A stretch of DNA of 64,000 nucleotides from Acidaminococcus hominis. Its GTDB lineage: Bacteria > Bacillota > Negativicutes > Acidaminococcales > Acidaminococcaceae. The translations under genes and the position numbers were made by a program. The stretch is from assembly GCF_900291475.1 (NCBI RefSeq), contig NZ_OLMM01000005.1, forward strand, positions 1,007,575 through 1,071,574. The letters are read 5' to 3'. The notes beneath the pieces are model-generated. The model searched no databases, was not told the DNA's origin, and saw only the letters and a list, made by a program, of their open reading frames with translations. This document shows, in pieces, positions 4,529 through 61,980 of this stretch. How positions within the stretch are numbered: the stretch's first letter is position 1; each line of letters starts with the position of its first letter.

Positions 4529-7356
<2,828 letters not shown>

Positions 7357-43760: not shown

Positions 43761-43789
43761 TTGACAGTCCACGCCAAAATGACTATACT
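43761..43789 (+). promoter_or_regulatory. Promoter of the M-box-mgtA unit
   Basis: Perfect TTGACA (43761-43766), a 17-base spacer and TATACT (43784-43789). Confidence 0.85.
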
Positions 43790-43799
43790 AAGTATGCAA

Positions 43800-44013
43800 T
43801 TGAATAGCTCCGGTAGGTAAGGCTACTACAGGGATATGGGCTGCTGCCGCAACAGGATGGAGACATCCCGCGTAGGTCTGAACAGGCTGCATCAAATCGA
43901 AGGTGCAGCATAATGCAGTTACACCGCCCTGCAGAGTTAAAGCTCGTACGGCGGCAGAGTTAAATCGTTTTTCTGTGTTTTCGCCGTTCGGGTTTTCCCG
44001 GACGGCTTTTTTA
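43800..44013 (+). ncRNA. M-box (ykoK) magnesium riboswitch with terminator
   Basis: The leader contains the conserved M-box segments GCTCCGGTAGGTAAGGCTAC, GGGATATGGGCTGCTGCC and CAACAGG-type elements. A GCTGCATC…GGTGCAGC stem follows, then TAATGCAGTTACACC. A strong terminator (GCCGTTCGGG/CCCGGACGGC plus six T, 43983-44012) follows, 24 bases before the magnesium ATPase start. High magnesium should stabilise the aptamer and allow termination. A GCAGAGTTAAA repeat (43931, 43954) lies in the switching region. Confidence 0.93.
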
Positions 44014-44036: not shown

Positions 44037-46790
44037 ATGAACAAGAACACTATGGAAAAGAAAAATCAGGCAGCCGCTGCTGCTACCCAGGCTGCCCTGC
44101 AAAAGGAAGCAGCCCTGACCGCAGAAGCCCTGCTCCAGCAGTTGGGAAGCTCAGCCCAGGGCCTCACCGCCGACCAGGTGGAAAAGAACCGGGAAACCTA
44201 TGGAGAAAACAAGGTTACCCAGGAAAAGAAAAAGTCCGTGGGGGTGCGCCTGGCCGAAGCCTTTATCAACCCCTTTACGGTAATCCTGTTTGTGCTGGCC
44301 GGGGTATCGGCGGTCACCGATATTATACTGCCTCTCATGCAGAACCGGCTGGACGACTACAACCCGGCCACCGTTATCATCATTACCGTGCTGGTGCTCC
44401 TGTCCGGGTCCCTGCGCTTTATCCAGGAAACCCGCAGCGGGGACGCCGCCGCCAAGCTCCTGGAACTGATTACCACCACCTGCACGGTCATCCGCCAGCC
44501 GGAGGGCCAGACGGAAATCCCCCTGGAAGACGTGGTGGTAGGGGACCTGGTATTCCTGTCCGCCGGGGACATGGTTCCTGCGGACCTGAGAATTTTGGAA
44601 GCCAAGGACCTGTTCGTCAGCCAGGCCTCCCTTACCGGGGAAAGCGCGCCCCAGGAAAAGGTGCCGGCAGTGGCTGCCACTTCTGACAAAGCCGTGACCG
44701 AGCTCAGCAACCTAGCCTTTATGGGCACCAACGTCATCAGCGGTTCTGCCACCGGCCTGGTGCTCCGCAGCGGGGACCACACCCTGTTTGGCAGTCTGGC
44801 CAGCTCCATGGCCCAGGAAGCTCCGGAAACCAACTTTACCAAGGGCGTCAACGCCGTATCCTGGATTCTGATCCGCTTTATGATGGCCATGGTGCCCATC
44901 GTCTTTGTAGTCAACGGCCTGACCAAAGGGGACTGGCTCAACGCCTTCCTGTTTGGGATTTCCGTAGCCGTGGGCCTGACCCCGGAAATGCTGCCCATGA
45001 TTGTTACCACCTGCCTGGCCAAGGGCGCCGTTTCCATGAGCGAGAAAAAGACCGTGGTGAAAAGCCTGAACTCCATCCAGAGCTTTGGAGCCATGGACGT
45101 GCTGTGTACGGATAAGACAGGGACCCTGACCCAGGACCGGGTAGCCCTGGAATACCACCTGGATGCCTTTGGCAAGCCCAGCCAGCGGGTGCTGCGTTAT
45201 GCGTACCTGAACAGCTACTTCCAGACCGGCTACAAGAACTTTATGGACCGGGCCATCATCGCCCGGACGGAGCGGGAAGAAACCGAAGACCCCAAGCTCC
45301 AGGACCTGTCCGAAACCTACACCAAGGTGGACGAGATTCCCTTTGACTTCTCCCGCCGGCGCCTGTCGGTGCTGGTAATGGGCCACGACCACAGCACCCG
45401 GATGATTACCAAAGGGGCCGTGGAAGAAATGCTTTCCATCTGCAAATATACCGAGCAGGGCGCGGAAGACGTGCCCATGACCGACGAATTGCGCAAAACC
45501 ATCCTGGCCGTGGCTGACCGGCTCAACGACGAAGGCATGCGGGTTATCGGCCTGGCCCGGAAGAACGACCCCTCTCCGGTAGGCGCCTTTGGGGCCAAGG
45601 ACGAAACGGACATGATCTTCATGGGCTACCTGGCCTTCCTGGATCCGCCTAAGGATACCGCCATGGCCGCCATCAAGGCCCTGAAGGACCACGGGGTTTC
45701 CACCAAGGTGCTCACCGGGGATAACGAAAAGACCACCCGGTGCATCTGCCGCCAGGTGGGCCTGCCGGTGGACCACATCCTCCTGGGCAGTGACCTGGAA
45801 CACATGGACGACGCCACCCTCCAGAAGGAAGCCGAAACCACCACCGTCTTTGCCAAACTGTCCCCGGACCAGAAAGCCCGGGTAGTGGAAGCCCTCCAGG
45901 CCGCCGGTCATACCGTGGGCTTTATGGGGGACGGCATCAACGACGCCCCGGCTCTGAAGATTGCCGATATTGGCATTTCCGTGGACAGCGCCGTGGATAT
46001 TGCCAAGGAATCCGCCGACATCATCCTGCTGGAAAAGAGCCTTATGGTGCTGGAGCAGGGGATTGTGGAAGGCCGGAAGACCTACGCCAACATGATCAAG
46101 TACATCAAGATGACCGCCTCCTCCAACTTCGGGAACATGTTCTCCGTCCTGGCAGCCAGTGCCCTTTTGCCCTTCCTGCCCATGATGAGTCTGCAATTAA
46201 TCATCTTGAACCTGGTGTACGAAATCTCCTGCATCGCCATTCCCTGGGACAACGTGGACGAGGAATTCCTCAAGGTGCCCCGGAACTGGGACGCTTCCAC
46301 CATTGGCAGCTTCATGATCTGGATGGGGCCCACCAGTTCGGTGTTCGACTGGATTACCTATCTGGTGCTGTACTTTGTGATTTGTCCCCAGTTTGTGTCC
46401 GGCGGCCTGACCTACAACCAGATTCCCACTACGGCGATGCTTACCTCCGGCCCCATGGCCGGCCTCACCGTCCGGGACGCCTACGAAGCCATGTTCCAGG
46501 CCGGCTGGTTTGTGGAATCCATGTGGACCCAGACCCTGGTTATCCACATGATCCGCACCCCCAAGATTCCCTTCCTGCAAAGTCATGCGTCGGCTACCCT
46601 GACCACGCTCACCTGCGCCGACATTGCCGTGCTGACGGCTCTGCCCTTTACGGGAATCGCCCGGGACCTGGGTTTCGTGCCCCTGCCGGGAAAGTACTTC
46701 TACTTCCTGGCCCTGGTGGTCATTGCCTATATGCTGCTGGCCACCAGCGTAAAGAAAGCGTATATCCGGCATTACGGCACCCTGCTGTAG
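44037..46790 (+). CDS. mgtA: Magnesium-translocating P-type ATPase
   Basis: This 917-residue P3B ATPase imports magnesium. Visible motifs: LTGES (phosphatase loop), [12 protein letters not shown] (phosphorylated Asp), [11 protein letters not shown] and [13 protein letters not shown], with about ten transmembrane segments. The ATG at 44037 follows AAGGAGG. It lies directly behind the M-box, so expression should rise at low magnesium. MgtA and MgtB cannot be separated reliably by eye. A 37-codon membrane-peptide gene follows. Confidence 0.93.
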
Positions 46791-46832
46791 TGCTTAGCCT
46801 ATAGACAGCCTGGAAGAAGGGAGGGGAGCGCC

Positions 46833-46946
46833 ATGCTGCATATTGAACCGATTTTTTGGCTGGGCATGGGAGCCATTGCGGTGGTCGTCTGCGTTATGCA
46901 GATTGTCTGCTGGAACCTGACTCCGAAAGCGCCGCGTCATGACTGA
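46833..46946 (+). CDS. 37-residue single-pass membrane peptide after mgtA
   Basis: ATG at 46833 follows an excellent site (AAGGGAGGGGAG, about seven bases away) and opens 37 codons. The peptide starts MLHIEPIFWLGMGAIAVVV, and residues 8-27 form one strongly hydrophobic helix. The C-terminus is polar and basic (NLTPKAPRHD). It lies 42 bases after mgtA, before the first terminator, so it should be co-transcribed under the M-box. By position it recalls enterobacterial MgtS, a small peptide that stabilises MgtA, but no sequence relationship is claimed. It could also be a KdpF-like accessory subunit. Confidence 0.65.
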   Translation: MLHIEPIFWLGMGAIAVVVCVMQIVCWNLTPKAPRHD

Positions 46947-47023: not shown

Positions 47024-47066
47024 AAAAATGCCTTGTGAGCGGTAATTGCGTTCACAAGGCATTTTT
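47024..47066. terminator. Terminator of the mgtA unit
   Basis: AAAAATGCCTTGTGA pairs with TTCACAAGGCATTTTT, with A and T runs on both sides. It also serves the converging gene at 47086. Confidence 0.85.
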
Positions 47067-51458: not shown

Positions 51459-51612
51459 TAAAAAAACCTCTTCACTCAATATGAAGAGGAATGCGTTTGG
51501 CTTAATCATCTTCATCTTTCAGGCTGCACCTGATGGACTTAGCACCGTTCACAAAGTGATGGTTGCCGTAACATCATCGGGCCAGTCCCTCCGTTACTCT
51601 TGATGAATCCGT
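51459..51612 (-). ncRNA. SAM-I (S-box) riboswitch with terminator
   Basis: Minus strand, from about 51612: TCAAGAGTAACGGAGGGACT, GGCCCGATGATGTTACGGCA, GGTGCTAAGTCCATCAG and CTGAAAGATGAAGA are the hallmark SAM-I segments. An intrinsic terminator (CCTCTTCA/TGAAGAGG, 51489-51467, plus seven T) lies 24 bases before metN. SAM binding should switch the metNI operon off. Confidence 0.95.
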
Positions 51613-61735: not shown

Positions 61736-61832
61736 AGACACGCTACAAAAACATGCCGCCCGGGTATACCGGTCTGGCCGGTCAGCAAAGGGCTTGAGGG
61801 GGACCTTTGCAAAGAGATTTGCGTAGTGGATC

Positions 61833-61980
61833 AGCGCACGTGCCGGGATTCCCGGCAGACGAGGAAGAGGTTTATCGAAACGTCAGCGGATGCCTCTCGG
61901 TAAGCTGCAAACCGTAAGCAGACCTACAAACCCCTTTGGTAACAAAGGAACACAGAAGGGCCTGCGGCAGACGGTAAGTA
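61833..61980 (+). ncRNA. glmS self-cleaving ribozyme
   Basis: The leader matches the glmS ribozyme. The cleavage site A-GCGC lies between 61833 and 61834, followed by a P2 hairpin (TGCCGGGATTCCCGGCA) and the core GACGAGGAAGAGGTTTATCG. Then come GCGGATGCCTCTCGG and the accessory P3-P4 domain with CCTTTGGTAACAAAGG. Glucosamine-6-phosphate triggers cleavage and mRNA decay, lowering GlmS. It ends about 25 bases before the glmS start. Confidence 0.92.

Follow-up and report, generated by a model that had tools for sequence, protein, structure and literature searches.

The window analysed here is a stretch of 64,000 nucleotides from Acidaminococcus hominis. It contains an mgtA gene, for which both family matches (TIGR01524 and PRK15122) exceed the cut-off, followed on the same strand by a small gene encoding the product MLHIEPIFWLGMGAIAVVVCVMQIVCWNLTPKAPRHD (37 aa). 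The features of the locus are listed in Table 1. mgtA ends at position 46790 and the small ORF starts at 46833, leaving a spacer of 42 nt. The first-pass annotation had placed a well-initiated ORF of 37 codons 42 bases after mgtA; the ORF proved real, and its coordinates and spacer were confirmed. The core of its Shine-Dalgarno sequence lies 8 nt 5′ of the ATG, and no alternative ATG, GTG or TTG was found in frame between the mgtA stop and the start of the small gene.

Table 1. Features of the mgtA locus, in window coordinates
Feature	Position	Strand	Remarks
Sigma-70-type promoter-like site TTGACA-17-TATACT	43761..43789	+	11/12 matches; consensus match only
M-box (Mg2+) riboswitch aptamer	43802..43963	+	RF00380, 87.3 bits, gathering score 44
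Terminator hairpin of M-box expression platform, then T-run	43983..44006	+	
mgtA, Mg2+-importing P-type ATPase, 917 aa	44037..46790	+	TIGR01524 1106.7 bits, PRK15122 1144 bits
Candidate docking face, MgtA codons 904-912 (Ser904, Ala908, His912), last transmembrane helix	46746..46772	+	inferred
Shine-Dalgarno region of the small gene	46817..46828	+	GGAGG at 46820-46824, read from sequence
Small membrane protein gene	46833..46946	+	37 aa, ATG start, TGA stop, one predicted transmembrane helix
Strong intrinsic terminator closing the unit, probably bidirectional	47024..47066		18-bp stem, 7-nt loop, -27.6 kcal/mol

Between mgtA and the small ORF, the terminator scan reported nothing on the + strand. 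The hairpin at 47024-47066 is the first strong terminator noticed 3′ of the small ORF, so that the ORF lies ahead of it as had been proposed, and the ORF beyond this hairpin is convergent. The hairpin itself was absent from the scan list, perhaps since the stem contains an A-run with which the T-run pairs. With a promoter match and an M-box upstream and a closing hairpin downstream, mgtA and the small gene should be expected on a single M-box-gated transcript. Elsewhere in the window, a SAM riboswitch (51509-51609, - strand) and a glmS ribozyme (61822-61974, + strand) were found above their gathering scores.

Because 80 mechanical ORFs of at least 25 aa overlap the 42.5-50 kb region of the window, ORF length alone is no evidence for a gene. 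What sets the small ORF apart from chance is conservation. Nine genomes of the genus were surveyed. Five carry mgtA (E <= 1e-150), and all five have the peptide behind it; the other four are without both. The peptides of the four relatives are 55-64% identical to that of the window. Conservation of start, frame or length behind mgtA in close relatives was the test that the first-pass annotation had set for its proposal, and the proposal withstood it; the synonymous bias that it had also called for was observed. In 13 hand-picked, disjoint close pairs, pN/pS was 0.23 (79.3 synonymous changes over 221 sites and 67.7 nonsynonymous changes over 832 sites; binomial p 3e-18), with nonsynonymous changes exceeding synonymous ones in three change-rich pairs (L018/L019, L028/L029, and L053/L076). 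Within the genus, the proposed frame had the lowest pN/pS (0.35); the two others gave 0.81 and 1.64. The small gene is under purifying selection.

Outside the genus but within the class, some mgtA genes are followed by longer relatives that share a core, and others (e.g., L021-L023) lack the peptide. A wide scan with a nine-member MgtA alignment confirmed 476 loci, of which the 80 best named ones were kept. A profile grown from the peptides was searched against all ORFs of at least 20 codons in the MgtA loci. It gave 54 matches at E 1e-10 or better, and the next best match had an E-value of 0.38. The small gene is present in 54 of 107 MgtA loci (105 different MgtA proteins; L065 is a duplicate of L018, and L075 of L019), in every case as the next gene after mgtA on the same strand, with a gap of 11-381 nt. 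At L047, the contig ends 78 nt after mgtA, and the peptide is found on another contig of this genome, 84 nt from its end. Among the best 80 named loci (of 476) there were 43 carriers, 42 from Bacillota and one from Actinomycetota (Collinsella), with Clostridia contributing 37 of the 43. The carrier lineages are Clostridia, Negativicutes, Erysipelotrichia, and the one Collinsella. Three Lactococcus loci (L103, L109, and L116; none from L. lactis itself) are without the small gene.

All 54 carriers fell into one branch of 67 rows (SH-aLRT 88) in the MgtA tree (107 rows, 105 different; L036, whose MgtA match stops at residue 632, was left out). This branch also holds 13 non-carriers, and the remaining 40 rows contain no carrier. 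The carrier label requires 10 changes on the tree versus 35.9 in shuffles. For nine in-clade genomes without the peptide beside mgtA, none was found anywhere in the genome at E <= 0.1, indicating that the small gene is not essential to the pump there. The peptide profile was also searched against 678 whole genomes. These comprised 379 Negativicutes, which gave 11 strong matches, and 299 genomes of the Blautia family, which gave 9. Each of the 20 lies directly behind mgtA; at L136, where the contig end cuts mgtA, the last 51 MgtA residues still match. Twelve of the 20 (the 11 from Negativicutes and L066) were already known from the MgtA-first search and eight were new, so this test mainly shows that there is no strong copy elsewhere. 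The count leaves out three weak matches (G347, G512, and G582; E 4e-4 to 7e-4): two have an internal stop, one lies in a 143-codon frame, and none adjoins mgtA. Both the gene and its exclusive link to MgtA have good support.

The family has a median length of 51 aa. With positions numbered from a phenylalanine at 0, F(0) and W(+19) are present in all 54 members, D/N/E(-3) in 53, W(+1) in 52, M(+14) in 51, and N/Q/H(+15) in 48. The mean Kyte–Doolittle value is 2.3 over 20 residues, and K+R is higher on the C side than on the N side in 54/54 members. This excess points to an N-out/C-in orientation, and a single transmembrane helix, as read from the window at first pass, is predicted with that orientation in all 54. 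The start codon is ATG in 54/54 and the Shine-Dalgarno match is at least 5 in 52/54, both under a start-choice script that favours ATG plus Shine-Dalgarno. In one Phascolarctobacterium lineage, the peptide frame is extended to 86 aa (L019 82-339, - strand; L075 5679-5936, + strand). A chance ORF, or codons kept only for an RNA element, would fit the very short length and the varying gap to mgtA within the genus; however, the purifying selection is frame-specific, and the start, Shine-Dalgarno sequence and core residues are conserved across two phyla, which makes a non-functional ORF highly improbable.

Two subtypes were distinguished. The 7 short forms (37-42 aa, gap 36-381 nt) come from the genus of the window and two Oscillospiraceae loci. 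The 47 long forms have a median of 52 aa and a gap of 11-30 nt, and mostly carry an N-terminal MNWxxIWxxLFGTT-like segment. The size of 37 aa reported at first pass is therefore real for the window but represents a minority, 7 of 54 members. Given the gap of 36-381 nt, coupling to mgtA is loose in the genus of the window. An M-box at the Rfam gathering score was found at all seven short-form loci (L083, L085, L014-L017, and the window) and at 0/47 long-form loci, a few of which had little upstream DNA scanned (410 bases at L087 and 677 at L059). It was also found in 6 of 17 scanned loci without the peptide. Since the short forms represent about three lineages, the counts are not independent of the tree. 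M-box control, as suggested by the window, thus holds for the short subtype but is not general. In the long form, Mg2+ control seems to have been replaced by another kind.

Upstream of mgtA, a Shine-Dalgarno-led short ORF starting with MDSDGSPRRQR or similar was observed at L044, L046, L049, L052, L061, L063, L066, L076, L082, and others. It lies about 110 nt ahead of the start assigned to mgtA, or about 263 nt at L082. Some loci without the peptide have upstream ORFs such as MEPESSNGSNPDEAR, MDPESISSPDPIR and the like. Of 79 upstream regions, 22 had an acidic ORF start, and of 79 control stretches taken downstream none did; this count is descriptive, because the pattern was chosen after inspecting the upstream ORFs. 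We take these acidic leader ORFs to resemble the E. coli MgtL leader, and by analogy they may be Mg2+-sensing leader peptides in Firmicutes.

The MgtA residues of the 54 carriers were compared with those of 12 in-clade losers, with 771 of 917 columns passing the filter; the distant MgtA rows L025, L026, L035, and L037-L040 were omitted and L047 was set aside. The strongest differences were at columns 904, 908, 902, 706, 912, 415, and 905. The changes in losers thus cluster at the end of the last MgtA helix. Column 853 also ranks high, and 706, 415 and 853 lie away from that end. Ser904, Ala908 and His912 are one turn apart on one face, within 80 degrees of the helical wheel. S/C/T904 and A908 are present in 54/54 carriers. 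S904, A908 and H912 occur in 1, 5 and 3 of the 12 losers, and in 0, 2 and 0 of 33 rows outside the clade. On that face, 897 and 911 change too, and 898, 899, 903, 906 and 909 are unchanged. Losers also differ at the off-face columns 902, 910, 913 and 916 (p 1e-6 to 6e-4), and a general relaxation of the C-terminus may therefore account for some of the signal. In tree-independent pairs, 4.7 of 6 linked Ser904 to the peptide in the same way and about 0 in the opposite way (median p 0.06), which is only suggestive; 908 (2.7/6) and 912 (2.4/6) were weaker.

A further 28 MgtA loci of the Blautia family were inspected. Ser904 was accompanied by the peptide in 8/9 loci and other residues in 0/19. Absence of the peptide is expected in most of the 19 because they are outside the peptide clade, and the telling negatives are only L155 and L157, which are close to it. 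Two of the 28 loci had been known before (L152 = L066 and L157 = L098); which genomes held the peptide was known beforehand, residue 904 was not. At L149, MgtA has S904 and A908 without the peptide, and an unrelated ORF follows; a recent loss of the small gene is possible.

Ser904 co-occurs with N/Q/H at peptide position +15 in 48/48 rows, and Cys/Thr904 with I/V in 6/6 (4 distinct pairs). In a plain covariation scan, 904 ranks 17th for peptide +15, and MgtA column 426 divides the rows just as 904 does. Contact calls by mutual information were dominated by relatedness, and no contact is claimed from them. The Ser904 codon is AGY in all 48, which makes a nucleotide-level constraint at 904 possible; Ala908 uses all four codons. 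The predicted depths agree, the peptide and MgtA segments both lying in the cytoplasmic half of the membrane. An AlphaFold2 model of MgtA with a read-through peptide (20 sequences; pLDDT 57.7, pTM 0.32) was too poor for docking, and only a helix over peptide residues 6-29 was legible in it. A fair reading of these comparisons is that the small protein would bind at the end of the last MgtA helix.

The small protein might instead act on another target, such as a sensor or membrane protein, and share the mgtA transcript without binding MgtA. Co-expression alone would account for the gene position, the contact residue evidence is not decisive once corrected for relatedness, and E. coli MgtS also acts on PitA, according to the available part of PMC10710835. 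However, no strong match was found away from mgtA in the 678 genomes, and the MgtA last-helix end changes where the gene is lost. We consider another target quite unlikely.

Among known systems, the closest arrangement to mgtA plus the small gene is that of MgtU (28 aa) and MgtR (30 aa) of Salmonella with MgtB. As described in the accessible part of PMC10710835, both are made with this Mg2+ P-type ATPase in low Mg2+. The present family differs from them in being mostly about 50 aa long, with the core F-W, M-N, F-W-x-x-K-P, and in occurring almost only in Bacillota. No profile match was obtained for MgtR (1.6 bits, E 15 at Z=1000), taken in the sequence printed in PMC13174805. MgtS of E. coli (31 aa) is likewise a small membrane protein and binds and stabilises MgtA (PMC10710835, available part); the MgtA-MgtS complex survived in the mild detergent GDN but came apart in DDM and LMNG (PMC10925321). 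The mgtS gene, on the other hand, is flanked by ydeE and mgtT, and the 4.5 kb inspected contain no mgtA. Neither MgtS (1.4 bits, E 18 at Z=1000) nor E. coli MgtT matched the profile. KdpF (29 aa) is encoded in the operon of its K+ P-type ATPase and is a reported complex stabiliser (PMC10925321, accessible part). kdpF precedes kdpA, whereas the small gene follows mgtA (54/54) and is not in a kdpFABC operon; KdpF gave no profile match (0.0 bits, E 48 at Z=1000). Sarcolipin and phospholamban are also small regulators of a P-type ATPase (SERCA) but are eukaryotic, and the SERCA-regulator sites differ from the site predicted for MgtA (PMC10925321, a preprint, available part). The comparison detected no homology to MgtS, MgtT, KdpF or MgtR, with sequences too short to exclude remote kinship. 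The small protein would act like the class of small P-type ATPase partners and, by the tests run, appears to lie outside the MgtS, MgtT, KdpF and MgtR families. It is best read as a putative Firmicutes counterpart of MgtS, MgtU and KdpF without detectable homology to those compared (MgtS and KdpF), which fits the independent counterpart suggested by the first-pass annotation.

Searched at E up to 10, the window peptide matched no family of Pfam or NCBIfam, and Pfam, NCBIfam and PHROGs gave no credible match for it or the relatives scanned. For 42 of the 54 members, matches at E up to 0.01 were to six Pfam and two NCBIfam families, scattered and weak. OATP (one member, E 7e-4), DUF4212 (five members, E 0.0012) and LIC_13387 (two members, E 0.0018) were set aside as such. 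The best PDB profile match, V-ATPase subunit e (PDB 6m0r chain M, E 0.011, FWxMxPK), is probably due to chance; this subunit is another small subunit of an ion pump. Because the family libraries used hold no credible model, such genes may stay unannotated or hypothetical. Literature searches found no description of the small family, small-protein catalogue supplements, where it is possibly listed unnamed, being outside the search. No account of it was found in the accessible parts of PMC10710835, PMC10903887, PMC10925321, PMC7903761, PMC13209247, PMC13174805, and PMC11364881.

Taken jointly, we think it rather probable that the gene encodes a single-pass microprotein that serves as a dedicated partner, most likely a stabilising subunit, of one MgtA clade. 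The small protein would be made from the same mRNA as mgtA and would insert into the membrane N-out/C-in. The cytoplasmic half of its helix (M-N/Q-x-x-x-W) would pack on S904/A908/H912 at the end of the MgtA last helix. As a stabilising or assembly subunit resembling KdpF or MgtU, it would keep MgtA folded, active or protected when the cell is starved of Mg2+. We infer that it is translated and physically binds the pump, which face it uses, and that its effect is stabilising; the stabilising role is a choice among open options, and probably the right one.

The opposite direction was also considered, in which the small protein would be an MgtR-like negative regulator that binds MgtA and inhibits it or delivers it to FtsH, making uptake self-limiting. 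Size and co-expression agree with this, and the small gene can be lost while mgtA is kept. In the available parts of the sources, MgtR is made beside MgtB when Mg2+ is low and promotes the breakdown of both MgtA and MgtB (PMC10710835), and L. lactis MgtA has a lower Vmax with MgtR (PMC13174805). However, the long forms lie close 3′ of mgtA with a strong Shine-Dalgarno sequence, which suggests steady co-production, and MgtR is without a profile match. In L. lactis MgtA, contacts of M7-M10 hold antiparallel oligomers, and an ambiguous density, possibly MgtR, lies beside M3, not the last helix (PMC13174805, accessible part); the last-helix site proposed here would therefore differ from the MgtR site. 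A negative regulator appears unlikely, if less so than action on another target.

For the history of the stabilising partner, a tentative reading, to which we give slightly less than even weight, is an old and undescribed accessory-subunit family that would have been gained with the S904/A908/H912 face, moved with the pump from one gut lineage to another as a two-gene cassette, and been lost with the face. It would comprise the short M-box-linked subtype and the long subtype without an M-box, often with an acidic leader ORF. If true, the pump of these bacteria would be a two-subunit machine. In the literature found, as far as its accessible parts go, small proteins controlling Mg2+ pumps are from enterobacteria only; the present family would add one that is conserved among common members of the gut flora (Blautia, Phascolarctobacterium, Collinsella, and Oscillospiraceae). 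It also points to a candidate docking site on MgtA, and pumps that occur in nature with the partner can be compared with others that lack it.

Some further arrangements were noticed around mgtA. A second, more distant MgtA (45-49% identical) was found 0.7-7.3 kb upstream on the same strand at G027:C5, G303:C1, G295:C1, G340:C52, G427:C82, G598:C23, and G390:C20. At L026 and L037-L039, an ORF behind the second mgtA contains an OmpR-type winged-helix-like stretch, and the likely gene order is mgtA2, wHTH, mgtA1, small gene. At L041 (3001-6900, Enterocloster), the MgtA match spans 3900 nt for 917 residues, as if there were an insertion inside mgtA. At L049, a group II intron domain (RF02003, 92.4 bits; 6988-7128, - strand) lies downstream of mgtA and the small gene.
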